Assembly: GCA_947475995.1 (NCBI GenBank)
Contig: CANJNI010000011.1
Coordinates: 1 to 64,000 of the forward strand
DNA length: 64,000 nt
Direction of reading: 5' to 3'
Source: Beijerinckiaceae bacterium
Lineage (GTDB): Bacteria > Pseudomonadota > Alphaproteobacteria > Rhizobiales > Beijerinckiaceae
This document shows, in pieces, positions 5,084-63,805 of this stretch. The position numbers were made by a program, and so were the translations under genes. The notes under the pieces were generated by a model, which was given only the letters and a program-made list of their open reading frames with translations, searched no databases and had not been told where the DNA came from. Positions within the stretch are counted from its first letter, which is position 1; every line of letters starts with the position of its first letter.

Positions 5084-5827
5084 TTGAAGTTTCAGCGGAA
5101 ATCCCGGCTCCTGGGCCGCGCGGAACTGGTCTGGTTCGAGGCTGGCGCGGGGCATCCGGTCGTTTCGCTTCACCCCGCCGCCGGGCTTCAGATCCGCGCT
5201 GTCGCCAATGCCCTTGCGGAAGGTCGCCGTGTCATCCTGCCCATCGTGCCGGGCTATGAGGCGACTCCCTATGTGGACGGGATGAACACCATCCCGGAGG
5301 TCGCCGACCTCTTTGCCGAGTTCATCCGCCTCGAATGCCCGCAGACGCCCGATGTGGTCGGTCATTCGATGGGAGCGCGTCTGGCGTCCTGGATGATTGT
5401 CCGCCATCCCGACGTGGTTCGCCGGCTCGTGCTGATGGCGCCTTCCGGGTTCCGCCCCCTCGACGCTCCCCCGCTCAGTTTCGAGCCCGCAGTCTTCCTG
5501 CAGCAATTGTATGCGCATCCCGAGAGGCGTCCCCCCGAGACCCGCAGTCCGGAGGAGCTGGAGGCCAACCGGCGAGCATTCCGCCATTACGGCGTCGGCA
5601 ATCCACGCGACGAAGCGCTCGATGCGAAAATTCACCAGATCGCCTGCCCGACACTGCTGGTCGGTGGCGGCAAGGATGTCCGGGTGCCGCCGGAGTCTAT
5701 CCACTATCTCCACCGGAAGATCAGCGGTTCGCGCGCGATCTTCATCGACGACGCCGCCCACGCCATCGAGGTGGACCAGCCGGAGCAAACCTCCGCGCAG
5801 GTTCTGGCTTTTCTCGACGCTGCCTGA
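5084..5827 (+). CDS. alpha/beta-fold hydrolase
   Basis: 247 aa, TTG start at 5084 with an AAGGGAG run about five bases upstream. The catalytic triad is visible: Ser95 in GHSMGA, Asp198 in GGGKDVRVP and His226 in DDAAHAIEV. The layout resembles meta-cleavage-product hydrolases of aromatic degradation and fits its place at the head of a catabolic operon, followed after 27 bases by a ferredoxin and a ring-dioxygenase-like gene. The substrate is unknown. Another hydrolase of the same build lies at 12819-13592. Confidence 0.85.
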   Translation: MKFQRKSRLLGRAELVWFEAGAGHPVVSLHPAAGLQIRAVANALAEGRRVILPIVPGYEATPYVDGMNTIPEVADLFAEFIRLECPQTPDVVGHSMGARLASWMIVRHPDVVRRLVLMAPSGFRPLDAPPLSFEPAVFLQQLYAHPERRPPETRSPEELEANRRAFRHYGVGNPRDEALDAKIHQIACPTLLVGGGKDVRVPPESIHYLHRKISGSRAIFIDDAAHAIEVDQPEQTSAQVLAFLDAA

Positions 5828-5854
5828 TCGCCCCATACTTCTACGGATTCCCCA

Positions 5855-6241
5855 ATGCCCAAAGTCAGTGTAGTCAACCGGACGGATCAGGAGTTCGAAG
5901 TCTTTCAGGGCCGCACCCTTCTGGTAGGCGCGCGGGAGGCGGAGGTTCCGTGGCGCTGGTATTGCGGCGGGCAGGCTCTCTGCGGCACCTGCGCCCTGCT
6001 GGTAGTCGACGGCGAGCTCGGCGCGCCGACGGAAACCGAACAATATTTCATCGAAGGCTGGGGCTATCACCCCGCCTATCGGCTGGGATGTCAGGCCCGT
6101 GTCACCGGCGAGGTAAAAGTGATCAATTGCGCCGATGAAGGCTTCGAGAAGGAAAAGGTTCTGCAGGCCTGGGACAAGGCCAGGGCCGATCTTCCCGGGG
6201 CGCCGGCTTCCGCCGCCCGAAACACTCAATCAGAGAGGTAA
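5855..6241 (+). CDS. [2Fe-2S] ferredoxin (adrenodoxin/ISC-type cluster spacing)
   Basis: 128 aa cytosolic electron carrier. Four cysteines bind the cluster: Cys37, Cys43 and Cys46 in WYCGGQALCGTC (C-x5-C-x2-C), then Cys79 in RLGCQA. A 40-residue charged tail after the ferredoxin fold is longer than usual. It lies five bases before the HAO-like gene, so the obvious inference is that it feeds electrons to, or takes them from, an oxygenase step encoded here. No ferredoxin reductase is found nearby. Confidence 0.85.
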   Translation: MPKVSVVNRTDQEFEVFQGRTLLVGAREAEVPWRWYCGGQALCGTCALLVVDGELGAPTETEQYFIEGWGYHPAYRLGCQARVTGEVKVINCADEGFEKEKVLQAWDKARADLPGAPASAARNTQSER

Positions 6242-6245
6242 CGCC

Positions 6246-6896
6246 ATGGCCGGTCTTGCCGCATCCAGCCTGACGCCCGAATCCTTCGACCTGATGACGC
6301 AGTTCGCCGGACGCAAGGCGGCGCTGATGACGATGGATCTGTTGTCCGAGGAATCGAAGCTGCGCTACCGAAGTTTCTTTCCCTGCGGCGACATGCTGAT
6401 CGGCCTGCGTTACCACGAGACGAATCCGGGGCGCACCGCTTTCAAGGCCGGACGTGCGCTGAAGATCATCGACGGAAAGATCGTTTCGGAAGCCCGCAAG
6501 GACGTCCAGTTCGTCCAGCCGCTCGTTCCGCATCACTCCGAGCATGTGTACGGCTTCTGGCACATCAATGAAGCGCAGGAAATGTCGCTCAACCTCAAGC
6601 TGGACGACAACCGGCGTCTGACGGTTCTGGTCGAGGGCTTTCCCGAACGCGGTCGCAAGGATCGCTTCGCCTGGTACTGCCTGAGTTGCGTCACCCCGCT
6701 TTATATGGCGGAGGTCGAGACCGGCCGTGTCGGCCTCGGTGGCTATTATTCCGTTCAGGAAGATGCCTTCGAGGTCTTCAACGGCGACGAGAAGGTCCGG
6801 ACCTGCCGTAGTTGCGGCACGGTGCACCCGGTGGCCTATTCGATCTTCCCCTGGAAGGATTCGCGGGAAGAGAAGGAAGCGCGCCAGTGCTGGTGA
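6246..6896 (+). CDS. 3-hydroxyanthranilate 3,4-dioxygenase-like cupin with rubredoxin-like tail (copy A)
   Basis: 216 aa. The C-terminal third closely follows bacterial HAO: FAWYCLSC (Cys145, Cys148), then RTCRSCGTVHP (Cys187, Cys190), the rubredoxin-like metal site. In the cupin part a YHET run (His57) may match HAO's first ligand, but the Glu six residues later is Arg, and PHH (96-97) matches the third ligand. An extra segment YGFWHINEAQE (102-112) is absent from classical HAO and is shared with copy B1 at 58456. It therefore belongs to the HAO superfamily but probably does not do the standard reaction. It ends in Trp, as do both paralogues. ATG at 6246, five bases after the ferredoxin stop. 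Confidence 0.75.
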   Translation: MAGLAASSLTPESFDLMTQFAGRKAALMTMDLLSEESKLRYRSFFPCGDMLIGLRYHETNPGRTAFKAGRALKIIDGKIVSEARKDVQFVQPLVPHHSEHVYGFWHINEAQEMSLNLKLDDNRRLTVLVEGFPERGRKDRFAWYCLSCVTPLYMAEVETGRVGLGGYYSVQEDAFEVFNGDEKVRTCRSCGTVHPVAYSIFPWKDSREEKEARQCW

Positions 6897-7954
6897 TCGC
6901 CCCGTCTTCGCGCCGGTCGCATGGCGGTCGCCTTCTGGGGACGAAAAGCCTCTCGCTTGTGACGGCCGCTATCGGGACTTTGTGCGTGTGGTCCGGCGCG
7001 GCTTTTGCCCAGACGCAGCCGAAGCTTTCCATGCCCTCCGTGAAGGTCGCCATGGCACCTCCGGAGGCCGTCCAGAATGCGGCCCTCCACGCGGCGCTTC
7101 GCGGCGGCGATTTCGAACGCGAGGGTTTGAAGGTCGAAATCGTGCAATTCCGGTCCTGGACCGAGCCGGTTCAGGCCATCGCGTCCGACTCGGCGCAATT
7201 CGCCCTCGGAGCCGCCAGCCTGATCAGGGCGGTCAAGGGACAGAACGCGCCGGTGCGCCAGATCGCGATGATTTCGAGCCGTTTTCCTTACGACTTCTGG
7301 GCCCGCAAGGGCGGTCCGGCGAGTCTACAGGACCTGAAGGGCAAGACCATCCAGACGGTCCGGACGGGCGAAACGCTGGACAACATCTGGAAGCAGGTTC
7401 TCTCCAGCGCCGGGCTCGCGATCGGCGACGTCAAGCGGATCGAGGGCTTCAACGGGCTCGGGGCCCTGGCGTCGGGTTCGGCGGACGCCGCAAACGTGGT
7501 GGACACGCTGCTCGGAAAGTCCCGGGCGGCAGGCCTTACGCCGTTACTGGACTACACCCGCTGGCGGGAGGACAAGGGCCTTTCCCGAGGCGCCGGCGCA
7601 AATCTGGGCTGGGGCGCTTCGAGCAAATTCCTGCGCGACAATCCTGATTCCGCAAAGGCGTTTCTGCGCGCCCTGACCAGGGCGACCGAGCGGCTGCGCA
7701 AGGACCGGGCCTTCGCCCTCACGGTCCTGACGGACAAGCCGTTCGAAATTGAACCTGATGTGGCCGGCGAAATATACGATCGCCACAAGGACCATTGGAT
7801 CATGCGGATGGACATCGCGCGCGGCGATGCGGCGTTCGACGCCGAAATGGTCGAAGTGGTCATGGAATTGCCGCCCGGCTCCATACCGGTCGCCAGTTTC
7901 GTGGATGCACGGCCGATGACCGAGGTCCTTGGCGAACTCGGGATCACTTATTGA
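6887..7954 (+). CDS. NitT/TauT-type ABC transporter substrate-binding protein 1
   Basis: 355 aa if started at GTG 6887, which has AGAAGGA (6871-6877) nine bases upstream; GTG 6893 in the GTGA overlap with the previous stop is an alternative. A Sec signal follows (SLSLVTAAIGTLCVWSGAAFA). The mature part is NMT1/THI5-like: FRSWTEPVQAIAS, IQTVRTGETLDNIW and NLGWGASSKFL are characteristic. It is a paralogue of the next gene (8000-9025), with which it shares the same order of motifs. It delivers an unknown small organic solute to the ATPase and permease encoded downstream. Confidence 0.88.
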   Translation: MLVIAPSSRRSHGGRLLGTKSLSLVTAAIGTLCVWSGAAFAQTQPKLSMPSVKVAMAPPEAVQNAALHAALRGGDFEREGLKVEIVQFRSWTEPVQAIASDSAQFALGAASLIRAVKGQNAPVRQIAMISSRFPYDFWARKGGPASLQDLKGKTIQTVRTGETLDNIWKQVLSSAGLAIGDVKRIEGFNGLGALASGSADAANVVDTLLGKSRAAGLTPLLDYTRWREDKGLSRGAGANLGWGASSKFLRDNPDSAKAFLRALTRATERLRKDRAFALTVLTDKPFEIEPDVAGEIYDRHKDHWIMRMDIARGDAAFDAEMVEVVMELPPGSIPVASFVDARPMTEVLGELGITY

Positions 7955-7999
7955 AACAAAGTTGCGGTGAAACGCGATCGCCAACCGGAGGGAATTGAA

Positions 8000-9025
8000 A
8001 TGAACGCAACGTTCTTGACGAGACGCGCATTTACCGCAGGCGCTGCAGCCATGGCGGCCTCGTCTGCTGCTTTCGCGCAGGGCGCGCCGAAACTGTCCAT
8101 GCCGAAGATCAAGATCGCCATGGTGTCCACGGAACTCGTGCAGAACGCCGCGCTCTTTGCTGCCATCAAGGGCGGCGAATTCGCCGCACAGGGACTTGAA
8201 GTGGAGGTCGTCAACTTCCGCTCGTGGACGGAGCCGGTGCAGGCGCTCGCCAGCAATGCGGCGCAATTCGCGCTGGGCGCTGGAAGCCTCATCCGGGCGG
8301 TCGCCGGGCAGAATGCGCCGTTGCGCCAGATCGCCATGATCTCCAGCCGCTTTCCTTACGAATTCTGGGTGAAGGCGGGCAGCGGGATCAACAAGGTCGC
8401 CGACCTGAAGGGCAAGACGATCCAGACCGTGCGCACCGGCGAAACGCTCGACAACATCTGGAAGCAGATTCTGGGCGACGCGGGCCTCTCGATGACCGAT
8501 GTGAAGCGCGTCGAGAGCTTCAACGGCTTCGGCTCCATCATCTCGGGCTCGGTCGACGCCGCCAATCTGAACGACTCGCTGATGGCGAAGTCCCGCAAGG
8601 CGGGCCTCGTCAGCCTCGTGGAATATACGGCGTGGCGCGATTCGCATGGCCTGCCGAAGGGCGCGGGCGCCAACCTGGGGTGGGGCACGTCGACCAAGTT
8701 GCTCAACGACAATCCCGATGTGGTGAAGGCGTTCCTGCGGGCGATGGCCAAGGCCACGGACCGTTTGCGCAAGGACAAGCCCTTCGCGATTTCGATCCTG
8801 CAGGACAAGCCGTTCGAGGTGGAGGCCGAGGTCGTGTCGGAAGTCTATGACCGGCACAAGGATCACTGGCTGATGCGCATGGATTTCTCGCGAGGCGATG
8901 CGCAGTTCGACGCCGAGATGGTCGAGGTGGTGATGGAGCAGAAGCCCGGCTCCATCAAGCTCGAGTCCTTCGCGGTCGAAGCGCCCATGAAACAGGCGCT
9001 AAGCGAACTCGGGCTTTCTTTCTGA
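8000..9025 (+). CDS. NitT/TauT-type ABC transporter substrate-binding protein 2 (Tat-type signal)
   Basis: 341 aa. ATG 8000 is favoured over an upstream GTG because GGAGGG (7986-7991) lies eight bases before it and the resulting N-terminus is a sensible export signal: TRRAFTAGAAAMAA looks Tat-like, unlike the Sec-type signal of the preceding paralogue. The same landmarks recur (NFRSWTEPVQALAS, GETLDNIWKQILG, NLGWGTSTKLL). It lies 45 bases after the first receptor and three bases before the ATPase. Two receptors for one transporter may widen ligand range. Confidence 0.88.
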   Translation: MNATFLTRRAFTAGAAAMAASSAAFAQGAPKLSMPKIKIAMVSTELVQNAALFAAIKGGEFAAQGLEVEVVNFRSWTEPVQALASNAAQFALGAGSLIRAVAGQNAPLRQIAMISSRFPYEFWVKAGSGINKVADLKGKTIQTVRTGETLDNIWKQILGDAGLSMTDVKRVESFNGFGSIISGSVDAANLNDSLMAKSRKAGLVSLVEYTAWRDSHGLPKGAGANLGWGTSTKLLNDNPDVVKAFLRAMAKATDRLRKDKPFAISILQDKPFEVEAEVVSEVYDRHKDHWLMRMDFSRGDAQFDAEMVEVVMEQKPGSIKLESFAVEAPMKQALSELGLSF

Positions 9026-9028
9026 CGC

Positions 9029-9808
9029 ATGTCCCAATCCCCATCATCGCGACGACTGGTCGTGAAGGATCTTTACAAGACCTTCACGACATCCAATGGC
9101 GTTTTGCCCGTTATCGACAATATCAGTTTTGAAGTGTCGCCCGGCGAGGTCGTGACCATCGTGGGCGCCAGCGGCTCCGGCAAGACGACGCTCTTGCGCA
9201 TGATCGCCGGTCTGGAAACGCCCGATCGCGGATCGCTCACGCTCAATGGACACGCGATCATCGAGCCCGGTCCGGAGCGGGCGATGATTTTCCAGCATTT
9301 CGGCCTGATGCCATGGCTCAGCGTCTTGCAGAACGTCGTGTTCGGATTGAAGACATTGTCGATCAGCCCTGCCGAGAAGCTTGAGCGTGCGCATGAGGCG
9401 ATCGGGCGCGTCGGGCTGAAGGGCTTTGAGGACTTTCATCCGAAACATCTCTCGGGCGGCATGCAGCAGCGTGTCGGGATTGCGCGTGCACTCGCCGTGC
9501 GCCCGTCGGTTCTCCTCTGCGACGAGCCGTTCGCGGCCGTGGATGCGATGACCCGCCTGCTCATGCAGACCGATCTGCTCGGCATCGTCACCGAACAGCA
9601 TGCGACGGCGCTCCTCGTGACCCACGACATCGAGGAGGCGCTTTATCTGGGCGACCGCGTTCTGGTGTTTTCGTCGCGGCCCGCGCGGCTGATCGAGGAA
9701 ATTCCCGTTCGCATTCCAAAGCCGCGCAAGCCGGAAATCCGCACTTCGTCCGAATTTCAGGCCCTGCGCGCAAAGGTCTGGCGGCTATTGCAGGAGCACA
9801 CGAAATGA
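9029..9808 (+). CDS. ABC transporter ATP-binding protein (SsuB/TauB-like)
   Basis: 259 aa. Walker A GASGSGKTT (46-54), Q-loop at FQHFGLMPW, signature LSGGMQQR and Walker B VLLCDEPFAAVD are all intact, followed by the H-loop in LVTHDIEEAL. This is the energy-coupling subunit of a NitT/TauT-type importer; its stop overlaps the permease start by four bases (ATGA). The two upstream binding proteins complete the transporter. Confidence 0.93.
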   Translation: MSQSPSSRRLVVKDLYKTFTTSNGVLPVIDNISFEVSPGEVVTIVGASGSGKTTLLRMIAGLETPDRGSLTLNGHAIIEPGPERAMIFQHFGLMPWLSVLQNVVFGLKTLSISPAEKLERAHEAIGRVGLKGFEDFHPKHLSGGMQQRVGIARALAVRPSVLLCDEPFAAVDAMTRLLMQTDLLGIVTEQHATALLVTHDIEEALYLGDRVLVFSSRPARLIEEIPVRIPKPRKPEIRTSSEFQALRAKVWRLLQEHTK

Positions 9809-10593
9809 CGGCCGTTGCCGACGACGCCGCGCCGCGCCGGACCCGGCCGGCGACAGGAACGCGCGCCATCTCGGCGGGCATTCTGGCGGTCATTCTGATC
9901 GCGTGGGAGATCGCCGGACAGGCGCAATATGTGAATCCGTTCTTCTTCAGCTGGCCCAGCGCGATTCTTCAGGCGTCGTGGAAGCTGATCGCCAATGGTG
10001 CGCTGGCGCAAAATCTGGTCGTCACCGCCTACGCCTATCTGGTGGGCGTGTTTGCGGCCATCATCGTCGGATCGGCGCTCGGGCTCGCGATGGGCTGGTG
10101 GAAAACGTTCGGGGATATCATCGACCCCTATGTGGTCTTCTTCTCCGCCATGCCGCGCATTGCGCTTTTCCCCATCCTGCTCATGGTGTTCGGCATCAGC
10201 GATCTCTCGCGCATCATCATCGTGTTCATCGGCGTGGTGTTTCCGATCATCTTCAACGCCTATATCGGCGCCAAGCAGACACCGCGCCTGCTGATCGACG
10301 CAGCCCGCGTTTTCGGCTACGGCACCAACCAGCTTTTCATGAATGTCGTGTTCCCTGCGGCGTTGCCCTACCTCATCGCGGGCGTCCGCACCGGCGTGAC
10401 GCTCGGCATGATCATGGTGGTCGTGGCCGAATTTTTCGGCGGCTCCAGCGGCCTCGGCCAGAACATCGCCCAGAGCGCCCAACTCTACAAAACGCCTGAA
10501 CTCTATGCGTGGCTGCTGTTCACATCGCTACTCGCGGTCGTGCTCGTGAAGGGCGCGGACCGCTTCGAGCGCTGGGCGATGCGCTGGGCCTGA
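9805..10593 (+). CDS. ABC transporter permease (SsuC/TauC-like)
   Basis: 262 aa, about six membrane helices. The EAA loop region is seen around GTNQLFMNVVFPAALPYLIAG, the coupling site for the ATPase. The N-terminal 25 residues are Ala/Arg/Pro-rich and cytosolic. It is the last component of the cassette A importer, followed after 13 bases by the Pht5-like gene, so the imported compound is probably the substrate of the neighbouring enzymes (inference). Confidence 0.92.
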   Translation: MTAVADDAAPRRTRPATGTRAISAGILAVILIAWEIAGQAQYVNPFFFSWPSAILQASWKLIANGALAQNLVVTAYAYLVGVFAAIIVGSALGLAMGWWKTFGDIIDPYVVFFSAMPRIALFPILLMVFGISDLSRIIIVFIGVVFPIIFNAYIGAKQTPRLLIDAARVFGYGTNQLFMNVVFPAALPYLIAGVRTGVTLGMIMVVVAEFFGGSSGLGQNIAQSAQLYKTPELYAWLLFTSLLAVVLVKGADRFERWAMRWA

Positions 10594-10606
10594 CCGGAGA
10601 GATTGA

Positions 10607-11599
10607 ATGTCGCGTCTGAACCTGAGCTTCGCGGTCTGCAAATACGACCATATGCGGGACATCATCAACAAGACGATCGAGCCGGAGGGCATCGATCTGA
10701 ACGTGATGCAGTTCGACAATCCCTCCAAGATTTTCCATCGCGCCACGAACTTCCACGAGTTCGACGTCTGCGAACTTTCCTTCGGGCGGCAGATCGCGCT
10801 CGTATCGCAGAACAAGAACCAGATGGTCGCGATCCCGGTCTTTCCCTCTCGCATGGGGCGCATCAGCGGTTTCTATGTCCGCGCCGATTCCGACATCAAG
10901 AAGCCCGAGGATCTCGCCGGGAAACGCATCGGGGTTCCCGAATGGGCGATGACGGCGACGATCTTCGGACGCGGCTGGCTGGCCGAACATGTCGGCGTCG
11001 ATCTGCGGTCGATCGAATGGATACAGGCCGGAAGCGAGATGCCGGGACGCAAGGAACCGGTGGATCTGAATCTGCCTGAAGGACTGCGATTGACCGCGCG
11101 CGAAGACAAGGCGCTCGTCGACATGCTGGTGGACGGCGAGATCGATTGCCTGCTGTCGGCGCAGGCGCCGCAGCGGATGCGCAACGGCGATGGAACCATC
11201 CGCCGTCTCGTGCCGAACTACCGCGCCGTCGAGCAGGCCTATTATGAATCGACCGGCATCTATCCGATCATGCACGTCATCGCGATCAGGAAGAGCCTGC
11301 TGGAGCAGCACCCGTGGATTGCGGTGAATCTCTACGAGGCGTTTGAGGCCTCAAAGAACGAGGCGCTCCAGCGTCTGCCGAAGGTCAATCACGCGATGTA
11401 TCCGGTGCCGTGGCTCCAGGATTATGTGCGCGAAATTCAGGCAATCTTCGGCAAGGACATTTGGCCCTACGGACTGGGGCCCAATCGGCGAACGATCGAG
11501 GCGTTCCTGAGATTCGGATTTGATCAGGGAGTCTGCGAACGTCTCGTGAAGCCCGAAGAAATGTTCGCGCCTGCGACATTGAATCTCGCCAAGGCGTAA
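10607..11599 (+). CDS. 4,5-dihydroxyphthalate decarboxylase-like protein (binding-protein fold, no signal peptide)
   Basis: 330 aa. The start (MSRLNLSFAVCKYDHMRDI), the IEPEGIDLN stretch at 24-32 and the HEFDVCELS segment follow the Pht5 family, cytosolic decarboxylases that share a periplasmic-binding-protein fold. DLAGKRIGVPEW and the TGIYPIMHVIAIR stretch are also family features. No signal peptide or lipobox precedes it, which argues for a cytosolic enzyme rather than a receptor. The likely role is decarboxylating an ortho-dihydroxy aromatic acid; the exact substrate is unknown. Cassette B has a signal-less binding-fold protein in its own cluster (60071-61027). Confidence 0.75.
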   Translation: MSRLNLSFAVCKYDHMRDIINKTIEPEGIDLNVMQFDNPSKIFHRATNFHEFDVCELSFGRQIALVSQNKNQMVAIPVFPSRMGRISGFYVRADSDIKKPEDLAGKRIGVPEWAMTATIFGRGWLAEHVGVDLRSIEWIQAGSEMPGRKEPVDLNLPEGLRLTAREDKALVDMLVDGEIDCLLSAQAPQRMRNGDGTIRRLVPNYRAVEQAYYESTGIYPIMHVIAIRKSLLEQHPWIAVNLYEAFEASKNEALQRLPKVNHAMYPVPWLQDYVREIQAIFGKDIWPYGLGPNRRTIEAFLRFGFDQGVCERLVKPEEMFAPATLNLAKA

Positions 11600-11671
11600 C
11601 GCAACGTCTTGCAAAGCTGAAGTCTGCTCTGTAGCGTCTTTTTCAGTCAACCATGAGGGAGCGAAACCGCG

Positions 11672-12772
11672 ATGAAAATCGCCCTGTTTTGCAACACGCG
11701 ATATGCCGGTGATGCGCCCAAGGGCGTCTGGCCTGTTCCGGGCCACACCTATATGCCCGAAGTGGCGACGCGATCGATGGATCGCACGCTCGAACAAATC
11801 AGGCTGGGTGATGAAGTCGGCTTCGACTGGCTGACTGTCGCGGAACATCATTTTGCGCCGTTCTCCATGTCGCCAAATCCGAACGTTCTCGCGGGCGCGC
11901 TGACCCAGGTCGTCAAGCGCGCGAAGATCGCCCTGCTGGGACCCGACGTGCCGGTGCTCAACCCTGTGCGGGTCGCGGAAGAAATCGCGATGCTCGATAC
12001 GATTTCGGGCGGCCGCATCATTGCGGGCCTGATGCGCGGAACGCCGAACGAATACGTCACCTACAACATCAATCCCGCCGAATCGCGCGAGCGCTTCCAG
12101 GAAGCGGTCCAGTTGATCCGCATGTGCTGGACGGAGCCGCAGCCCTTCGGCTGGCAGGGGCGCTATTACCAGCACCGCAGCATCTCCATCTGGCCGCGGC
12201 CCGTGCAGCAGCCGCACCCGCCCATCTATATGTCCGCCGCGACGCCGGAGTCCGGCGAGTTTGCGGCGCAGAATCGCCTCGGCATCGGCTTTGCGTTCAC
12301 GACCGTGCAGATCGCGTCGGTCGCTGCCGATTATTATCGCAAGCAATGCGAACTGAACGGCTGGACCCCGACGCCGGACCAGGTGATCTATCGTCTGGGC
12401 ATGCACTGCACCGAGGACGACGAGGAAGGCATTGAGGATCTGATCGAAGCAGGTGGCGGCCAGCCGGCCGTCGGTCTGACGATGACCAACAAGGCTCTCG
12501 AAAGCGCCGTCGCGAAGTCCGGCTATTACGGCCGCGACATCGACAAGCAGCGTGCCCGTCTGCAATCGCGCGGCGAAGTTCGTGACCGCATCGAAAAGGG
12601 CCAGGTGCTCGTCGGAACACCCAAAACGATCATCGCCCAGATCCGCCGGATCAAGGACATTCTCGGCTGCGGCATCCTCGATCTGAGCATCGGCGCCCAG
12701 ATGGGTGACAAGACGCTCAAATCGATCGAGATGTTCGGCAAGAAAGTCATTCCCGAAATTCAGGCGCTTTGA
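11672..12772 (+). CDS. luciferase-like (LLM class) flavin-dependent monooxygenase
   Basis: 366 aa TIM-barrel flavoenzyme. TVAEHHF (56-62), ISGGRIIAGLMRGTPNEY (111-128) and PPIYMSAATPESGE are typical of the class, which uses FMNH2 and O2 to oxidise organic substrates. No dedicated flavin reductase is found in the window. It is preceded by a 72-base gap with GAGGGAGC before the ATG. It may carry out a hydroxylation or Baeyer-Villiger-type step in the same pathway as the HAO-like and decarboxylase-like proteins (inference). Confidence 0.88.
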   Translation: MKIALFCNTRYAGDAPKGVWPVPGHTYMPEVATRSMDRTLEQIRLGDEVGFDWLTVAEHHFAPFSMSPNPNVLAGALTQVVKRAKIALLGPDVPVLNPVRVAEEIAMLDTISGGRIIAGLMRGTPNEYVTYNINPAESRERFQEAVQLIRMCWTEPQPFGWQGRYYQHRSISIWPRPVQQPHPPIYMSAATPESGEFAAQNRLGIGFAFTTVQIASVAADYYRKQCELNGWTPTPDQVIYRLGMHCTEDDEEGIEDLIEAGGGQPAVGLTMTNKALESAVAKSGYYGRDIDKQRARLQSRGEVRDRIEKGQVLVGTPKTIIAQIRRIKDILGCGILDLSIGAQMGDKTLKSIEMFGKKVIPEIQAL

Positions 12773-12818
12773 TCGAAGGCAGCCTCGTCACTCACTAAGC
12801 AATCTGGGCCATGGTGGA

Positions 12819-13592
12819 ATGATGTTCACTGAAGCGCATGTCGAAGCGGATGGTTTTCAGATCCGCTACCTCTCGGCCGGAGAGGGTGAGCCGCTGGTTT
12901 GTCTGCATGGCGCAGGCGGCCTGAGAATTTCGCGGGCGCTCGAACTGCTGAGCGCCAGATTCCGGGTTTACGCGCTGGAAATGCCGGGCTTCGGCCAGTC
13001 GCCGGTCAACGACCGCACGGCCAGCACTGAAGACATGGCCCGCACGGTTGCGGCTGCAGCTGCGGCGCTGGGTCTCGAGAAGTTCAATCTCTGGGGCAAT
13101 TCCTTCGGCGCCAAGATCGCCATGCAGTTGACCGTGATGAATCCTGACATGGTCAGGACGCTCATTCTGGTTTCACCTGCGGCCATTCGCACCACACCGC
13201 GTCCGGTCGAGGGAGAGCCGACGCCTGAGATGCTTTACGCTCAACCGGAAAAGCAGAACATTGCGCCGCCGAGCCCGGAAATCAGCGCCAAACAGCGGGC
13301 GCTCGTGCAGCGCCTGTCGGGGCCGCCGAGAGACGAGAAGTTCGAGGCGAGCATCAAGGGGCTTGAAATACCGACCATTGTGCTTTTCGGGACGCGCGAC
13401 CGCCTGACCCCGCCCGAGAACGGTCGGATTTATCGCCAGTTGATGCCCAAGAGTTCTTTGATGATGATCTATGACGCCGCCCATGCGGTTGATGCGGATC
13501 GTCCCGAGGCGGTCGCGGAAGTTGTCGGGGACTACATCGAGCGGCACGACAGTTTTCTGGTGACCCGGCAGAACGGAATGCTTCATCCTTGA
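12819..13592 (+). CDS. alpha/beta-fold hydrolase
   Basis: 257 aa; two adjacent ATGs at 12819 and 12822 are possible, with GGTGG just upstream favouring the second. Nucleophile Ser95 lies in WGNSFGAK, the acid in FGTRDRLTPPE and the base His in DAAHAVDADRPE. It has the same architecture as the hydrolase at 5084 and probably acts on an intermediate of the same pathway. It is followed by the M24-fold gene after 51 bases. Confidence 0.85.
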   Translation: MMFTEAHVEADGFQIRYLSAGEGEPLVCLHGAGGLRISRALELLSARFRVYALEMPGFGQSPVNDRTASTEDMARTVAAAAAALGLEKFNLWGNSFGAKIAMQLTVMNPDMVRTLILVSPAAIRTTPRPVEGEPTPEMLYAQPEKQNIAPPSPEISAKQRALVQRLSGPPRDEKFEASIKGLEIPTIVLFGTRDRLTPPENGRIYRQLMPKSSLMMIYDAAHAVDADRPEAVAEVVGDYIERHDSFLVTRQNGMLHP

Positions 13593-13643
13593 GCTAATTC
13601 TTGACGTCCAGAGGCGCAAAGCCCGGAACAATGGGAGGAACCG

Positions 13644-14837: not shown

Positions 14838-14845
14838 GAGCCGAA

Positions 14846-15811: not shown

Positions 15812-15866
15812 AATGGCGGCAAGTACAACAGGGGCCGCCGCATCGCTTACGAGAGGGAGGGAATCC

Positions 15867-18658: not shown

Positions 18659-18678
18659 AATGTCCGGGGGGTTCTCCA

Positions 18679-31541: not shown

Positions 31542-31550
31542 TTGCTCAAC

Positions 31551-39893: not shown

Positions 39894-39958
39894 TCCGTCG
39901 GCCTATTTGTTCACGGGCGACTGCTGTGCAGCCGCAGCCAACTGGCGTCAATTCGGGC

Positions 39959-39974
39959 TGGCACGCCTCCTGCA
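39959..39974 (+). promoter_or_regulatory. sigma-54 (-24/-12) promoter
   Basis: TGGCACGCCTCCTGCA matches the TGGCACG-N4-TTGCW consensus with a single difference (C for the first T of TTGC) and exact GG/GC spacing. Transcription should begin near 39985, about 20 bases before the ATG of the first transporter gene, with GGAGG in between. Sigma-54 control fits nitrogen acquisition from cyanate. Confidence 0.75.
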
Positions 39975-40005
39975 ATGTATCACCGTACATTATGGAGGAA
40001 CTGAC

Positions 40006-56656: not shown

Positions 56657-57130
56657 ATGGCGAGGCGGTACAATTACCGCCGCGTCAAAATCCATCACAG
56701 CTACTCCATACCAGAGTTTGCGAAACTGCTCGATGTTCACAAGAACACCGTCAGTCGATGGATCGCGGCTGGACTCCAGACGATCGACAAGAAGCGTCCG
56801 TTGCTCATCCAAGGCACGGTCGGGCGCGCCTTCCTGCAAGCACGGCAACCGCCCAAGTCGAAGTGCGGTCCGAATGAATTCTGGTGCTTCAAGTGCCGGG
56901 ACCGCAGGAAGCCCGCTTTCGACGAGGCGGACTACCGGCCCGTTACACCTACTTCCGGGCGCTTGCAGGCGCTCTGTCCTGTCTGTTCCCGGATCATGAA
57001 TCGAGGTGTCCGCAAAGCCGAAATCAGTCGCGCTTGTCCGGATGTGCGCGTCACCGAGAAGGTCGAGCAGCAACGCATAGACGATAGCTCTGACCCCACC
57101 CTGAATGTTGTCATCAAGCAGGAAAAATGA
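56657..57130 (+). CDS. helix-turn-helix protein with zinc-ribbon-like CxxC pair
   Basis: 157 aa starting one base after the AlpA stop. Residues 17-40 (SIPEFAKLLDVHKNTVSRWIAAGL) are a helix-turn-helix of the excisionase/MerR-like kind; Cys77/Cys80 (CFKC) and Cys107/Cys110 (CPVC) would bind one zinc. Its stop overlaps the integrase start by four bases, so it is probably an accessory recombination or regulatory factor. I know no named family for this combination. Confidence 0.7.
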   Translation: MARRYNYRRVKIHHSYSIPEFAKLLDVHKNTVSRWIAAGLQTIDKKRPLLIQGTVGRAFLQARQPPKSKCGPNEFWCFKCRDRRKPAFDEADYRPVTPTSGRLQALCPVCSRIMNRGVRKAEISRACPDVRVTEKVEQQRIDDSSDPTLNVVIKQEK

Positions 57131-58170
57131 ACATGCCGAAAAGAACACCTTTGAATGAACGCCTGAAGCGCCACTACCTTCAGTTTCTCAAGGAAGTGAA
57201 ACGCCGCGATACCGCCTCGATCGACGCGGCGGCAAAGGCAATCGAGCGCTACGACGCCTTCATGAAGTACCGGGACTTCCGGAAGTTCAACACGGACGCG
57301 ATCATCGCCTTCAAGGAGGACCTTGCCGAACTGCGCAACGTCCGTACCGGCGAGCTGATCTCCGCTGCGACGATCCATTCCACCTTGGCTGCCATCAAGG
57401 CCTTCTTTATCTGGCTGGCGGATCAACCCGAGATCAAGCGCAAGATCACCTATTCGCTCGCGAACTGGTTCAACTCGACGGAAAACCTGTCGCGGGTTGC
57501 GACCGCCCGACGCTTTCGCCCCGGACCATCGCTGGACCAGATCAGGCAGGTGCTGGCTGCAATGCCGACGGGCACCATAGTTCAGCGCCGCGACCGGGCA
57601 TTAATGGCCGCAGCGATCGTCACCGGAGCACGCGACATGGCCTTGACGACATTCAAGTTGAAGCATGTCGATCTGGACGCTCGATTGATTGAGCAGGACG
57701 CTCGGACCGTTCGGACGAAGCGCGCCAAGACCTTCACGACTTGGTTCTTCCCGGTTGGCGACGACATCGAGGCGATCCTGATTGAATGGGTGAAGACGCT
57801 GCGCACGTCGGGCTGCGGGCCGAACGATCCGCTCTTCCCGAAATCCAAGGCAGTGATGGGGAAGGATCTGCAAATTCAGAAGATCGAGTTGACGAAGGAT
57901 CATTGGTCCAACGCCAACCCGGTTCGGATGATCTTCAAAACCGCATTCGCAGCTGCGGGTTTGCCCTACTTCAACCCTCACTCTTTCCGTAAGACTCTCG
58001 TGCAGTATGCGTACGATCTGGACCTGTCGGCTGAGCAGATGAAGGCGTGGTCGCAGAACCTTGGCCACGACGACGTGATGACCACGTTTTGCAGCTACGG
58101 GACTCTCCCGCCTGCCCGCCAAGGGCAACTCATTTGCGGGATCGTCCGGAAGGATCGTTCGGCTCCGTAA
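57127..58170 (+). CDS. tyrosine recombinase / integrase
   Basis: 347 aa. The catalytic residues of the family are visible: Arg169 (VTGARDMAL), probable Lys201 (RAKTFTTW), His285 and Arg288 (PHSFRKT), His314 (LGHDDV) and Tyr324 (SYGTLPPA). An SAM-like N-terminal core-binding domain covers about 10-105. With the two small DNA-binding genes it forms a translation-coupled integration module. Attachment sites and the far end of the element were not found. Confidence 0.9.
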   Translation: MNMPKRTPLNERLKRHYLQFLKEVKRRDTASIDAAAKAIERYDAFMKYRDFRKFNTDAIIAFKEDLAELRNVRTGELISAATIHSTLAAIKAFFIWLADQPEIKRKITYSLANWFNSTENLSRVATARRFRPGPSLDQIRQVLAAMPTGTIVQRRDRALMAAAIVTGARDMALTTFKLKHVDLDARLIEQDARTVRTKRAKTFTTWFFPVGDDIEAILIEWVKTLRTSGCGPNDPLFPKSKAVMGKDLQIQKIELTKDHWSNANPVRMIFKTAFAAAGLPYFNPHSFRKTLVQYAYDLDLSAEQMKAWSQNLGHDDVMTTFCSYGTLPPARQGQLICGIVRKDRSAP

Positions 58171-58455: not shown

Positions 58456-59094
58456 ATGTTCGCTGAAATCGAAGTCAAGGAACCTATCGAGAAGATTTTC
58501 GACGACTGGGATTTCCTGAACGATCAGGTCCTGAAACACTTTTCGACGTTCAAGGTGGCCGGACACAACATTTATGGATTGCGCCGACGTCTGATCGATT
58601 CGACTGGCATGAACGACCCCAAGAAGGGCAACATCAGTCGATTCCTCGAACTGGGTCCGAAAGGCATTTCCGAAGGGCATCAAAACCCGCTGGATCTGCG
58701 CGTAACGACTGCTGGCACGCCGCATCGCGTCATGCACAATTTTGGCTATTGGCATATCAACGACAAGGACGAGCTCTATCTGCCAATTCCGGGCCGTAGC
58801 CCCGAAGAACTTGGCTACTACGTCATCTTGATGGGTCTGCCGAAAGGCAAGGAGACGGACTCGTTCGCTTGGTACTGTGAAGATTGCAGCACACTTCTCT
58901 ATGATCATGTCATAGATACCGGGACCATCGGCTTGGCGGGGTTCTGGAAAGGCGAACGAGAGGCAGTCAACACCTATAACGGCAGCCTCAAGCTTAGAAC
59001 CTGTCCGGAATGCGGCCACGTGAACCCGCTAGGCTACTGCTGGAACAAGGCGAAGGACACGCCGGCGGAAGCCGAAGCGCGCCTGCACTGGTAG
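58456..59094 (+). CDS. HAO-like cupin with rubredoxin-like tail (copy B1)
   Basis: 212 aa from ATG 58456 after GGGAGGG. The tail matches 3-hydroxyanthranilate dioxygenase: FAWYCEDC (Cys141, Cys144) and RTCPECGHVNP (Cys183, Cys186). In the cupin part GTPHRVMH keeps the third HAO ligand (His90), but HAO's His/Glu pair is not seen; the segment FGYWHINDKDE (96-106) is shared with copy A and offers His100 and Glu106 as possible new ligands. It ends in HW. It is probably co-transcribed with copy B2, nine bases downstream. Confidence 0.72.
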   Translation: MFAEIEVKEPIEKIFDDWDFLNDQVLKHFSTFKVAGHNIYGLRRRLIDSTGMNDPKKGNISRFLELGPKGISEGHQNPLDLRVTTAGTPHRVMHNFGYWHINDKDELYLPIPGRSPEELGYYVILMGLPKGKETDSFAWYCEDCSTLLYDHVIDTGTIGLAGFWKGEREAVNTYNGSLKLRTCPECGHVNPLGYCWNKAKDTPAEAEARLHW

Positions 59095-59103: not shown

Positions 59104-59706
59104 GTGACCGCAATACCTGAAGTCCGGAACTTCGCCGGCGCTGAGCCCGTTCTGCGCTACCTTTTTCCTGTAAAGCCCGATGCATCAACGCTCGGAAAAT
59201 GGCAACGCACGTTCGATTACGACGTTTGGACACACTGCAGCACAGACGGCAATGACCCCCATACGCTTTGGGAAAAAGTGGAAGGGGGCGTGGTGCGTAT
59301 TCCAAAGCATGAATCCACGCTCCATGTCGTCAAGGCGGGCACACCTCACCATGTCGCGGGCCTTTTCGGCTACTGGCGAACGAGCGATTCGGACATCATC
59401 TTTTTTCGCGTCGTCAGGGAAGGTGTGGTTCACGAGGCAATGGTGCTCGGTGGCTGCCCCAGCGCTTACGAGCAGGACAGCATTTCGTGGATCTGCCCAT
59501 CTTGCGCGACGGAATTCGGCAAGGTGACCGTTTCGACCGGACGCAAGAACATCTCGCGCTTCTGGGCCGAGGAAGTGAAAGCGGTTGCGCGTTTCAACTC
59601 TGCGGAATCACAGCGCACTTGCCCGGTTTGCGCGCGCGTACATCCGCTCGCCTATGAATTCAAACGGCCCGGCATGCCCGATGCGCATCCAGAACTCGAT
59701 TGGTGA
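59104..59706 (+). CDS. HAO-like cupin with rubredoxin-like tail (copy B2)
   Basis: 200 aa, GTG start. The double CxxC is kept (Cys131/Cys134 in WICPSC; Cys173/Cys176 in RTCPVCARVHP) and so is GTPHHV (His82, His83), but the GYWHIND segment has changed to GYWRTSDSD, losing the His and acidic residue. It may be a structural or electron-transfer partner of B1 in a heteromer (inference). It ends in LDW, like its paralogues. The Rieske gene follows at once. Confidence 0.7.
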   Translation: MTAIPEVRNFAGAEPVLRYLFPVKPDASTLGKWQRTFDYDVWTHCSTDGNDPHTLWEKVEGGVVRIPKHESTLHVVKAGTPHHVAGLFGYWRTSDSDIIFFRVVREGVVHEAMVLGGCPSAYEQDSISWICPSCATEFGKVTVSTGRKNISRFWAEEVKAVARFNSAESQRTCPVCARVHPLAYEFKRPGMPDAHPELDW

Positions 59707-59714
59707 ACATCGCC

Positions 59715-60035
59715 ATGGATACTTTGGTCTGTGACTTTGACGAACTGGAGCAGGCGACGCCGCGCGTCTTTCGCATCAATTCCAGAATGGTGGCCCTTGT
59801 AAAACTTGGCGACGAGGTTCGTGCAATTGATGCGTTCTGTCCGCATTGGAAAGGCCCTCTGGGGTCCGGCAAGGTGAGCGTTGAAAGGAGAGAAATCATC
59901 TGTCCTTGGCACCTCTTCCGATTCAGTCTCGACGATGGCAGCTGCGTCGCCGCAAATGATCGTCCGCCGGTGGAAGTCTATCCCGTATCGCTCGACGACG
60001 GAAAAGTCAGGGTCCGGGTCCCCGAAAAACCTTAG
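59715..60035 (+). CDS. Rieske-type [2Fe-2S] ferredoxin
   Basis: 106 aa from ATG 59715; a GTG at 59703 overlapping the previous stop is also possible. The Rieske ligands are Cys42 and His44 (CPHWKG) and Cys63 and His66 (CPWHLFRF). It is the size of ferredoxins that serve ring-hydroxylating oxygenases. It has the same place in cassette B as the plant-type ferredoxin in cassette A. No oxygenase large subunit or reductase is seen. Confidence 0.88.
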   Translation: MDTLVCDFDELEQATPRVFRINSRMVALVKLGDEVRAIDAFCPHWKGPLGSGKVSVERREIICPWHLFRFSLDDGSCVAANDRPPVEVYPVSLDDGKVRVRVPEKP

Positions 60036-60070: not shown

Positions 60071-61027
60071 ATGCTAACGAAACCGCTCGAAGTTCGCATT
60101 ATTGGTGCCGGCGGAAACTGGACCGGTATCTCCAGCCGGATATCCCTCGGATTGTCTGGCTATTATAGCCGGCTGCCGAAAGGATCCACAGTGGCGGCGA
60201 TCGGAGCTGATCCGGCTGAAGTTTGCTACGAAGGCATCATCCGTGTCGCAAACGGCACGGAGCATATGTCCATCACCACCCCGGCATGGTTCGCGAGGCT
60301 GGCGCTCAAAGGAATGTATCCATTCGAGAAGCCGTTGCCGCTTCGGGCGCTGGCCGGCTTCCGCCACGATGACCGGATGGCTTTCGCAGTGAAGCGTTCG
60401 CTCGGCATCAAGAGCCTCAAGGAAATCCGAGACAACAAGATTCCCCTCAAGGTGTCGACGGCCCCTCCGGGCTCCTGGCATCCAGCCTATTGGGGCGCAT
60501 CGCAAATTCTCAAGGAATATGGCTTTTCGTTCGAGGATATTGTCAGCTGGGGCGGCAAACTTCTCGCTGATCGTCCGCGTTTCATCAATGATCCAAATGC
60601 GAAAATGATCAGCGATGATTTCGATGCAGTCTTCGATGAAGCGCTGATGACGCGTCGCTGGAAGAAACTTACCGACGAGCACGACCTGGTATTCTTGCCG
60701 ATTGAAGATGACGTTATGCAGCGGTTGGAGGCCAAGGGTTGGGAGCGCAGCACAATCGCTAAGGGACGGTTCCGCGGCGTTGACGAGGACGTCCCGGCGG
60801 CAGACTATTCAGGTTGGCTGCTGTTCTGTCGGGAAGATATGGATGATGAACTGGCCTATCTCACCATCGCGGCTCTTGAAGAGCAACAAAAAGACATACA
60901 GAACCTGTTCCCGCAGCCTTTTGCGGCAATGACGGGTCCCGCCGACCTGAAGACAATCTCCAGCAATCTGCCGATCCCGCTCCATCCAGGAGCTGAGCGC
61001 TATTACCGCGAAAAGGGCGCACTCTAA
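60071..61027 (+). CDS. TAXI-like binding-protein-fold protein without signal peptide
   Basis: 318 aa from ATG 60071, preceded by GGGAGGG. The TAXI/NMT1-type fold is suggested by VRIIGAGGNWTGISSRISLGLSGYYSRL and IPLKVSTAPPGSWHPAYWG. There is no N-terminal hydrophobic segment or lipobox, so it should stay in the cytosol and be an enzyme or sensor rather than a receptor. It may be the counterpart of the decarboxylase-like protein in cassette A. I cannot name its reaction. Confidence 0.6.
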   Translation: MLTKPLEVRIIGAGGNWTGISSRISLGLSGYYSRLPKGSTVAAIGADPAEVCYEGIIRVANGTEHMSITTPAWFARLALKGMYPFEKPLPLRALAGFRHDDRMAFAVKRSLGIKSLKEIRDNKIPLKVSTAPPGSWHPAYWGASQILKEYGFSFEDIVSWGGKLLADRPRFINDPNAKMISDDFDAVFDEALMTRRWKKLTDEHDLVFLPIEDDVMQRLEAKGWERSTIAKGRFRGVDEDVPAADYSGWLLFCREDMDDELAYLTIAALEEQQKDIQNLFPQPFAAMTGPADLKTISSNLPIPLHPGAERYYREKGAL

Positions 61028-61052: not shown

Positions 61053-62102
61053 ATGAAACTGAAATCAGTTATCGCCGGTGTCGCGGCCCTTGTAGCCGCC
61101 TTTGGACTTACAGCAGAGGCGTCTGCGCAAAATGAGGCTCCCGCGTATACTGGACCTCGCACAGCTTTAAAACTGGGCGTGAGCGGGCGGCCTGACCAGG
61201 CGTTCTTGGAACTCGCGATCCGTCGCGGTTACTTTGCCCGTCAGGGTATAGATATTGAAACAGTGCCGGCGCAATCAGGCAACGACTTCATTGCGCCTTT
61301 GGCTCTCAATCAGCTGCAGGTTGCAAGCGGTTCCCCCAACGCTTCGCTTTTCAATGCCCTTAATCGCGGCGTTGATATTCGCATCGTTGGCGATTTTGCG
61401 CATCTTGGTCCCAAGGAAGACGGGCTGGTCTCAATCGTCGTGCGGAGCGACTTGCTGGATTCCGGCGCCGTTAAAAGCCCCGCTGATCTTAAGGGAAAGA
61501 CCGTCAGCCTGGGTACCGGTCGTGGGCAGGTGTCTTACATCGTAATGAATTCGGTTCTGGAAGAAGCGAAGATGTCCTGGAAGGACATCAATCTTCAGAA
61601 TGTTCCTTTCGGAGAAGCTATAAGCGCCTTTCGTAACAAGGCCATCGATGCCGCGTTCATGATCGAACCACTGATCGCTGCAACGGAGAAACAGAATATA
61701 GCGCGCATCTTGGTGCGCGGCGGAGCTGTAGAGTCCGGCGCGCATCTCTCTATTTTGCTTTATTCTCCTGAGTTCGCGAAACAGACGGATGTCGCCACCC
61801 GTTTCATGATTGCCTATCTCCAGGGCGCGCGTGACTACCGCGACGCGTTCTTTCTGAAGAAGGGACAGGACGAAGCTATCGCGATCTTGACGCAGCACCT
61901 GCCCATCAAGGACCCGGAAGTCTGGAAAAGCGCCTTCCCGCAATATACCGACGTGAACGGCGAGGTAAACGCTGCGGACATCAAGCGACAAGCCGAAATC
62001 TATCGGAAGCTGGGGGACGTGTCCGGAGCCATGCCCGATATCGACAAATATGTCGATCGGCGCTTTGCTGAAGGAGCCCTGAAGGTTCTGGGCAAACAAT
62101 GA
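61053..62102 (+). CDS. NitT/TauT-type ABC transporter substrate-binding protein (cassette B)
   Basis: 349 aa with GAGGGAGGG before the ATG and a Sec signal (VIAGVAALVAAFGLTAEASA). The mature NMT1-like part has LKLGVSGRPDQAFLELAIRR, ARQGIDIETVPAQSG and KTVSLGTGRGQVSYIVM. It overlaps the ATPase start by four bases. It is the receptor of a complete importer; the ligand is unknown. Confidence 0.9.
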   Translation: MKLKSVIAGVAALVAAFGLTAEASAQNEAPAYTGPRTALKLGVSGRPDQAFLELAIRRGYFARQGIDIETVPAQSGNDFIAPLALNQLQVASGSPNASLFNALNRGVDIRIVGDFAHLGPKEDGLVSIVVRSDLLDSGAVKSPADLKGKTVSLGTGRGQVSYIVMNSVLEEAKMSWKDINLQNVPFGEAISAFRNKAIDAAFMIEPLIAATEKQNIARILVRGGAVESGAHLSILLYSPEFAKQTDVATRFMIAYLQGARDYRDAFFLKKGQDEAIAILTQHLPIKDPEVWKSAFPQYTDVNGEVNAADIKRQAEIYRKLGDVSGAMPDIDKYVDRRFAEGALKVLGKQ

Positions 62103-62965
62103 ACGCTCCTGTGCATGCAAAGAGCGCATCAGATAATACGCCGTCGCAATCTGGCGACGGCGAACGTCCGATCAAAATACGCATTCGAGGTTTGAGAAAG
62201 CGTTTCCAGGCGCGTGGCGTAACTGTGGACGCTCTTATGGGCATTGATGTGGACATTCGGGAGGGGGAGTTCTTTTCCATCGTTGGTCCGTCGGGATGTG
62301 GCAAGACGACGCTATTAAGAATCGTCGCAGGCCTCGAAACCAAATCTGGTGGTCGGATTGAAGTTCTCAGATCAGCCGATTCTCGATCACGCGGCCCACT
62401 CGGAAGCATGGTCTTCCAGGAGCAAAGTATTTTCCCGTGGATGAGCGTGCGCGACAACGTCGCCTTCGGTCTAAAGGCGAGAGGAGTCGACAAATCCACC
62501 AGGCTCGCCATCGCGGATAATTTCATCGAAAAGGTCGGCCTTCACGGGTTCGGGCAGGCTTACCCGCACCAGCTTTCTGGCGGGATGAAACAGCGAGTTT
62601 CAATCGCGCGCGCCTTGGCTAATGACCCGGAAATCCTGCTCATGGACGAGCCTTTTGGGGCCCTCGATGAACAGACAAAACTGGTTTTACAGGAAGAGCT
62701 GCTTCGCATCTGGGAAGAGACCCGCAAGACGGTGATTTACGTCACTCATTCAATCGATGAAGCTATCCTGCTTTCGGACCGGATTATGATCATGAGCGCC
62801 CGTCCGGGGAAGATCAAAGACATCATTGATGTGAGTTCTATTTTCCAGCGACCTCGCCATGTCGATGAAACAAAGTCGAGCGCCGAATTTGGGGTGCTTT
62901 TTTCCCGCGTCTGGGGAAATCTTCGGAATGAAGTCGGAAAAGACGACGCCGCACGGAGCGCATGA
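62099..62965 (+). CDS. ABC transporter ATP-binding protein (SsuB/TauB-like, cassette B)
   Basis: 288 aa with a 25-residue polar N-terminal extension. Walker A GPSGCGKTT (63-71), FQEQSIFPW, signature LSGGMKQR and Walker B ILLMDEPFGALDEQ are intact, with VTHSIDEAI as H-loop. It is the energy subunit of the cassette B importer. Confidence 0.94.
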   Translation: MNAPVHAKSASDNTPSQSGDGERPIKIRIRGLRKRFQARGVTVDALMGIDVDIREGEFFSIVGPSGCGKTTLLRIVAGLETKSGGRIEVLRSADSRSRGPLGSMVFQEQSIFPWMSVRDNVAFGLKARGVDKSTRLAIADNFIEKVGLHGFGQAYPHQLSGGMKQRVSIARALANDPEILLMDEPFGALDEQTKLVLQEELLRIWEETRKTVIYVTHSIDEAILLSDRIMIMSARPGKIKDIIDVSSIFQRPRHVDETKSSAEFGVLFSRVWGNLRNEVGKDDAARSA

Positions 62966-62968: not shown

Positions 62969-63805
62969 ATGAATCAAACGGCTCTTCGCGAGGAACGGAT
63001 CGAAATCGGCGCAAACGACCGTCCAGAACGCGGCGTACTCGCTTTCTTTCAAGGCCGTTTTGGCATGCGGCTTCTCAGGATACTGTCGCCGATTTCCTTG
63101 ATCCTTATTTGGGAGCTTGCAGCCCGCATTGGCTATGTAGACACTCGCTTTTTTCCATCCCCGACCGGAATCCTGATCGTCGGCGAAAGAATGTTGGAAA
63201 CGGGGGAGTTATGGGGTCACATCTACATCAGCGGGAAACGGATACTCGCCGGTTTTCTGATCGGTGCGATCCCCGGCATCTTGCTGGGAATCGCCATGGG
63301 CCTTTGGGCTCCTGTGCGAGCAATCATAGAGCCGCTGATAGACGCAACATTCCCGATTCCGAAAATAGCGATCCTTCCCCTCTTCATCATGATCTTCGGG
63401 CTAGGTGAAGAAAGCAAATACGCAATCATAGCTACAGCGGTCATCTATCTGGTTCTGATCAACACGGCCGCAGGCGTTCGTAACATCGACAAAATCTACC
63501 TTGATGTCGGGAAAAATTTTAACGCCGGAAAAATACTCATCTTCACCGACATTGCATTGCCCGGCGCGCTGCCAATGATTCTCGCCGGCTTGAAGCTAGG
63601 TATGGGAGTCGCTCTGCTGGTCATCGTCTCAGCGGAATTCGTCGGAGCGAAAAGCGGCATTGGCTATCTGATCTGGACGTCTTGGCAGGTTTTCGAAGTT
63701 GAGAAGATGTATGTCGGGCTGGTCGTTTCGGCTCTATTGGGCATCGCGACTGCCGTTGTTTTGGATTGGGTCGAGCGTATTCTGGTTCCGTGGAAGCCAC
63801 GCTGA
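62969..63805 (+). CDS. ABC transporter permease (SsuC/TauC-like, cassette B)
   Basis: 278 aa, about six helices after a charged N-terminus. The EAA loop is DVGKNFNAGKILIFTDIALPGALPMIL. It completes the importer with the two genes before it (three-base gap to the ATPase). The next gene starts six bases later. Confidence 0.93.
   Translation: MNQTALREERIEIGANDRPERGVLAFFQGRFGMRLLRILSPISLILIWELAARIGYVDTRFFPSPTGILIVGERMLETGELWGHIYISGKRILAGFLIGAIPGILLGIAMGLWAPVRAIIEPLIDATFPIPKIAILPLFIMIFGLGEESKYAIIATAVIYLVLINTAAGVRNIDKIYLDVGKNFNAGKILIFTDIALPGALPMILAGLKLGMGVALLVIVSAEFVGAKSGIGYLIWTSWQVFEVEKMYVGLVVSALLGIATAVVLDWVERILVPWKPR

Follow-up and report, generated by a model that had tools for sequence, protein, structure and literature searches.

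Which reaction is served by a bacterial gene cluster that encodes a distant relative of 3-hydroxyanthranilate 3,4-dioxygenase (3HAO) beside a small ferredoxin and the parts of an importer? Such a cluster, cassette A, lies on contig C11 (CANJNI010000011.1) of a Beijerinckiaceae bacterium (GCA_947475995.1; 4.14 Mb in 73 contigs, about 96% complete), of whose 109,853 bases the first 64,000 were analysed and are called the window here. A second cassette, B, lies further along in the window. Our answer, for which we see equal weight for and against, is that cassette A is a catabolic cluster of about 5084-20900 importing a small acid, which would be oxidised by a ferredoxin-coupled protein, HaoA, with a variant of the 3HAO fold, and that cassette B would be its sister module. 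The new element is the predicted pairing of a ferredoxin with a 3HAO-fold variant whose metal site appears altered; the fold itself is already known.

Conservation of the haoA gene cluster

A search of GTDB species genomes gave nine further loci with haoA homologues, so that ten loci including the window were compared: three from Rhizobiales/Beijerinckiaceae, three from Defluviicoccus and four betaproteobacterial ones. Neighbouring genes were located by tblastn using the window genes as queries. The ferredoxin gene fer2, haoA and an NMT1-type receptor gene occur together in all ten loci (9/9 outside the window), and importer ATPase and permease genes in nine, as the contig of L011 ends before them. 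In contrast, homologues of Fer2 or of the Rieske-type ferredoxin of cassette B were found beside none of 33 ordinary 3HAO-type genes (tblastn with two Fer2 and one Rieske query, E 0.01, over a span of 1.5 kb that was shorter where contigs ended). These controls, chosen as C-terminal-only matches with 12 confirmed as 3HAO by alignment, comprise 26 loci from 24 other genomes of the order, the genome's own copy on contig C13 and copies in six of nine related genomes. Since all nine other loci share the fer2-haoA-receptor association and none of the 33 control loci has such a ferredoxin, the association is more than chance. A sequence-only reading had proposed one uptake-plus-oxidation unit, which would have been contradicted by haoA genes scattered at random without ABC (ATP-binding cassette) and [2Fe-2S] neighbours; co-inheritance supports the proposal, and each of the nine loci has a receptor gene as well as the ferredoxin gene.

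The eight genes which that reading had placed between 5084 and 11599 on the + strand are all present with the identities given, as confirmed by open reading frame (ORF) coordinates and Pfam/PDB matches. Together with the genes following them they are:

5084..5827, + strand: abh1, alpha/beta hydrolase (Pfam Abhydrolase_1, 6.5e-15); homologues adjoin haoA in L005-L008
5855..6241, + strand: fer2, [2Fe-2S] ferredoxin (Pfam Fer2, 1e-11)
6246..6896, + strand: haoA, HAO-like protein of 216 aa, predicted 3HAO fold with two CxxC motifs; H96, H106 and E112 conserved
6887..7954, + strand: NMT1-type receptor 1 (Pfam NMT1, 8.6e-22), start GTG 6887 or TTG 6812
8000..9025 (ORF from 7967), + strand: NMT1-type receptor 2 (Pfam NMT1, 4.5e-27), start probably ATG 8000
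9029..9808, + strand: ATPase of a NitT/TauT-type ABC importer (ABC_tran)
9805..10593, + strand: permease of this importer (Pfam BPD_transp_1, 3.1e-22)
10607..11599, + strand: Pht5-like protein, homologue of 4,5-dihydroxyphthalate decarboxylase (PDB 9jp7, E 4.8e-64 over residues 1-325)
11672..12772, + strand: luciferase-like flavin monooxygenase, LLM (Pfam Bac_luciferase, 2e-46)
12822..13592, + strand: abh2, alpha/beta hydrolase (Pfam); syntenic in L005, L006 and L010
13644..14837, + strand: M24 creatinase/prolidase-like hydrolase (Pfam); syntenic in L005 and L010
14846..15811, + strand: ornithine cyclodeaminase/mu-crystallin-like protein, OCD (Pfam, 1e-27); syntenic in L005 and L010
15783..16955, + strand: SBP_bac_8 receptor of a second importer (Pfam); syntenic in L005 and L010
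16952..18658, + strand: permease of the second importer (Pfam BPD_transp_1 in two stretches); 64% identity in L010
18613..19803, + strand: orf396, hydrolase-like (Hydrolase_4 match only, sub-cut-off at 8e-4; no Pfam match at 1e-5); 61% identity in L072, 32-36% near haoA in L007 and L008
19800..20900, - strand: ATPase of the second importer (ABC_tran and TOBE_2); 56% identity in L072

The spacing stated there was gaps of at most 45 bases or small overlaps; where starts are clear, the distances are 27, 4, 3, -4 and 13 bases, and receptor 2 probably follows after 45 bases, counted from ATG 8000. The ORF of haoA is listed from 6135, and we take ATG 6246, four bases past the ferredoxin gene and behind GAGAGG, as its start because the protein then matches its homologues in length. 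Receptors 1 and 2, with 67% identity over 312 residues, arose by tandem duplication.

Where the sequence-only reading erred is in the extent and composition of the unit. It ended the unit at 11599; we judge from gene order that it runs from about 5084 to 20,900 and includes two importers, because a betaproteobacterial metagenome-assembled genome (MAG; L010 with L072) keeps the order that far. There, fer2-haoA-receptor-ATPase-permease-LLM-abh2-M24-OCD-SBP8-permease568-orf396-ATPase366 recur at 43-73% identity, with neither a second NMT1-type receptor nor a Pht5-like gene among them; ATPase366 is inverted in the window. The record of L010 is titled "Bordetella parapertussis" MAG, in our judgement probably a mis-assigned environmental betaproteobacterium. 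The exact set of eight genes is not conserved either: abh1 is found in five of the ten loci and the second receptor and Pht5-like gene in two each, the latter only in the window and L005; both are lineage-specific. L005, from a Beijerinckiaceae MAG, is the nearest named locus found, with 95% identity in haoA. LLM is present in six loci (at 38-39% identity in L007 and L008) and was not found in L012 and L013 within the 20 kb fetched; L009 and L011 are short contigs. A TAXI-like gene lies between the ferredoxin gene and haoA in L011-L013. Overall, the haoA system is rare among the sampled species genomes, yet occurs in three proteobacterial groups, mostly in MAGs. The sequence-only reading knew of no described pathway with the exact set of genes; that set, as said, is not a conserved entity, and no paper was recognised as describing it in the literature searched, which included PMC10143591, PMC2590616, PMC9420511 and PMC12746152, most subscription papers lying outside it.

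Predicted fold and metal site of HaoA

HaoA has no Pfam match, and its last ~70 residues alone match the NCBIfam 3HAO model, with 35.8 bits far below the cut-off of 220. For the predicted folds of HaoA and of B1, its relative in cassette B, the top 20 PDB entries are all 3HAO, over nearly the whole chain. With 3HAO (NbaC; PDB 1zvf, 1yfu) HaoA thus shares the predicted fold, the C-terminal double CxxC (four-cysteine) domain of the bacterial and yeast enzymes and, in a profile alignment, the position of one histidine ligand of the metal. The iron ligands of 3HAO, which we take to be His51, Glu57 and His95, are invariant in an alignment of 12 ordinary 3HAOs. The profile alignment pairs His95 with H96 of HaoA, whereas His51 and Glu57 fall outside it and have no conserved counterpart in the A family; HaoA carries an insert of ~19 residues with an H-x5-E motif (H106, E112). 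The set H96, H106 and E112 is near-invariant in the A and B1 families. Hits from metagenome contigs number 75 for A and 292 for B1. Our best reading of sequences and model is a 3HAO fold with a putatively altered metal site and a ferredoxin partner.

Could the HAO-like proteins be non-catalytic, i.e., metal-binding sensors or chaperones of a catabolic pathway? The candidate ligands are lost in B2, the second HAO-like protein of cassette B, and the two 3HAO ligands without counterpart in the A family also fit such a role. However, the near-invariance of H/H/E in A and B1, the retained fold and the many enzyme genes around speak against it, and we regard this explanation as very improbable.

An ordinary-looking 3HAO is encoded in the same genome on contig C13. 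In one Defluviicoccus locus, two more HAO-like genes stand in tandem near haoA (L007:14930-16234, - strand), with similar matches in L008; the product of the first (187 aa) aligns to NCBIfam 3HAO positions 49-170, second cupin motif included.

Cassette B, a probable sister module

Cassette B and the gene preceding it comprise:

57127..58170, + strand: integrase (Pfam Phage_integrase, 8e-7)
58456..59094, + strand: B1, HAO-like protein of 212 aa; H90/H100/E106 conserved (96/106/112 in A numbering)
59104..59706, + strand: B2, HAO-like protein; His-x5-Glu lost, Cys kept
59700..60035, + strand: Rieske-type ferredoxin (Pfam Rieske, 8.3e-15)
60071..61027 (ORF from 60059), + strand: TAXI/NMT1_3-like protein (Pfam NMT1_3, 5.7e-21)
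61053..62102, + strand: NMT1 receptor (Pfam, 1.2e-17)
62099..62965, + strand: ABC ATPase
62969..63805, + strand: ABC permease

B1 scores 33.3 bits against the NCBIfam 3HAO model (cut-off 220), and B2 has no match at 1e-6. B1, B2 and the Rieske-type ferredoxin gene are contiguous in all four B loci (window, L012, L013, L069), L012 and L013 being two near-identical Ramlibacter loci. The transporter beside them varies: the NitT/TauT-type set of NMT1 receptor, BPD_transp_1 permease and ABC_tran ATPase is complete in the window, as it is in cassette A, while L012 has a branched-chain-type ABC transporter (by eye) and L069 a TAXI receptor (Pfam) with a TRAP-like permease (by eye). Because its GC content is low (0.55 vs. 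0.62 around) and an integrase gene precedes it, cassette B was probably acquired horizontally. Beyond the window, a type I restriction methylase-like gene (by eye) and a second integrase gene follow it on C11 (L043:1543-4499), resembling a genomic island.

Cassettes A and B appear to belong together, since they share a contig in the window, a distance of about 5 kb (Rieske to fer2) separates their cores in both Ramlibacter loci, and the B locus of Defluviicoccus G659 (L069), with A on another contig, includes an LLM that shares 58% identity with the cassette A protein.

As a separate observation, TAXI/NMT1_3-like proteins are encoded beside HAO-like genes in the window (60071-61027), L012:8986-9951 and L075:2881-3870 and show, by eye, no signal peptide. 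Instead of being receptors, they might work in the cytosol as enzymes with the fold of a binding protein, like Pht5.

Role of the ferredoxins

Two non-homologous [2Fe-2S] families, Fer2 and Rieske, thus adjoin two branches of one HAO-like family. Fer2 has the cysteine spacing C-x5-C-x2-C...C, and its PDB matches include an adrenodoxin homologue and an E. coli ferredoxin, which we take PDB 1i7h to be. The net charge (K+R minus D+E) is -4 in the window copy and -2 to -4 in all nine complete copies; the tenth, a fragment, has -8.

One rival explanation is that HaoA and B1 are ordinary extradiol ring-cleaving dioxygenases whose ferredoxins merely re-reduce the active-site iron. The fold, predicted to be that of 3HAO, would fit; the fold of catechol 2,3-dioxygenase is a different one. 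There is also a precedent, as PMC2590616 describes ferredoxin genes adjoining extradiol dioxygenase genes and the reactivation of catechol 2,3-dioxygenase by XylT-type ferredoxins, so that a small [2Fe-2S] ferredoxin gene stands next to a gene for an iron-dioxygenase fold in both systems. However, reactivating ferredoxins typically have a net positive charge at pH 7 according to the same paper, in contrast to the acidic Fer2 copies, whose C-x5-C-x2-C spacing also sets them apart from the XylT type; cassette B has a Rieske-type ferredoxin in this place in 4/4 loci; and ordinary 3HAO-type loci have no such partner (0/33). The absence of the XylT-type positive charge from all nine complete copies favours, without proving, a role of Fer2 as a normal electron carrier, and we consider simple reactivation of ordinary dioxygenases unlikely.

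A second rival takes HaoA as a ferredoxin-independent dioxygenase, with Fer2 serving another enzyme in the cluster or outside it. A rubredoxin-like site, usually viewed as peripheral, is present in bacterial 3HAO, too. It was reportedly called an iron reservoir in the title of Liu et al. 2015. Ferredoxin reductases belong to the FAD_binding_6-type proteins, of which two matches exist elsewhere in the genome. On the other hand, no other ferredoxin-using enzyme was recognised among the scanned proteins of the two cassettes, and Pfam scans of 49 window proteins found no Rieske oxygenase alpha subunit, P450 or ferredoxin reductase, apart from a ferric-reductase-like membrane protein at 54230. Further, every locus examined keeps the pairing, and the ferredoxin that takes this position in the second family is not homologous to Fer2. 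We consequently hold this explanation to be quite unlikely.

Proposed mechanism

Under the ferredoxin-coupled reading, the importer would bring in a small, probably nitrogen-containing aromatic acid, which HaoA, consisting of a cupin and a four-cysteine rubredoxin-like site, would oxidise with O2 and electrons from Fer2. Iron would be held by H96, the most likely counterpart of 3HAO His95, and the re-sited pair H106-x5-E112. Fer2 would supply electrons for turnover or reactivation, possibly via the four-cysteine site. Later in this putative order of reactions, the product would be processed by LLM, the hydrolases, the M24 hydrolase and the OCD-like protein. In the horizontally acquired sister module, B1 would be catalytic, B2 a degenerate partner and the Rieske ferredoxin the electron donor.

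Rieske ring-hydroxylating oxygenases consist of an alpha subunit bearing a Rieske centre and the catalytic iron, a beta partner and a ferredoxin, a layout which B1/B2/Rieske ferredoxin resembles; however, no alpha subunit was found among the cassette proteins scanned, and what would be the catalytic protein is predicted to adopt the cupin fold of 3HAO. A bolder version of our reading is that HaoA/Fer2 and B1-B2/Rieske are two forms of a novel type of aromatic oxygenase that depends on electrons and is built on the 3HAO cupin, with a shifted His/His-Glu triad, a rubredoxin-like relay and B2 as regulatory or structural partner, the Rieske-oxygenase layout having been invented independently. We think this possible, if doubtful.

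Several observations weigh against the ferredoxin-coupled reading. Foldseek TM-scores of HaoA vs. 3HAO are low (0.34-0.44 in 14 rows, E up to 0.001). A multiple alignment pairs His95 not with H96 but with H100 (His in 65/75 A and 119/120 B1 sequences), the B1-3HAO profile alignment stops short of the His95 region, and the meeting of H96, H106 and E112 at one site is a prediction from sequence conservation. Neither cassette has a reductase gene. The sample of loci is small and partly near-duplicate (three Defluviicoccus, two Ramlibacter). The link to cassette B, also drawn in the sequence-only reading and upheld by the shared contig, the Ramlibacter loci and the Defluviicoccus LLM, is weakened by B1 occurring in only 4/10 genomes with A, mostly fragmentary MAGs. 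Finally, a nitrogen-containing or aromatic substrate is deduced from neighbour families only.

If the HAO-like proteins do need their ferredoxins, a cupin/extradiol fold would have been turned into an electron-driven oxygenase, with a redox precedent for the rubredoxin-like site of bacterial 3HAO. The conserved set of import, oxygenase-like and electron-carrier genes may mean a new bacterial attack on aromatic compounds. The cluster also represents a putative catabolic pathway without assigned name, mostly in metagenome-assembled Proteobacteria, and its receptors offer a handle on the substrate.

Substrate hints

The imported substrate is probably a small, nitrogen-containing aromatic acid, judging by the gene neighbourhood. 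The sequence-only reading had suggested a small aromatic or heteroaromatic acid, for which the annotation of neighbouring genes is likewise the sole basis. Nitrogen is suggested by the M24 and OCD-like enzymes. The Pht5-like gene hints at an aromatic diacid: the match to Pht5 (PDB 9jp7) spans the whole protein, which has no signal peptide by eye, but the likeness is one of overall alignment and the gene, as noted, is restricted to two loci. A nearby divergent gene in Ramlibacter, with a putative phthalate 4,5-dioxygenase as second-best PDB match, also hints at an aromatic diacid; hydantoinase-like (by eye) and DUF1989 (Pfam) genes in L007 point to N-heterocycles instead.

Other genes nearby

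Another set for uptake and oxidation of a small acid is found at 39907-44569 of the window (NMT1_2 receptor, ABC ATPase, TauD-family dioxygenase). At 30162-35381, a CapA-like gene (by eye) is followed by dipeptide-type ABC transporter genes, and a CapA-like gene (by eye) occurs upstream of the cluster in L005, too. L005 further has isopropylmalate-dehydratase-type and methylisocitrate-lyase-type genes upstream of the cluster (L005:4644-7733), a place occupied in the window by genes for an amidase and a fumarylacetoacetase-like protein.

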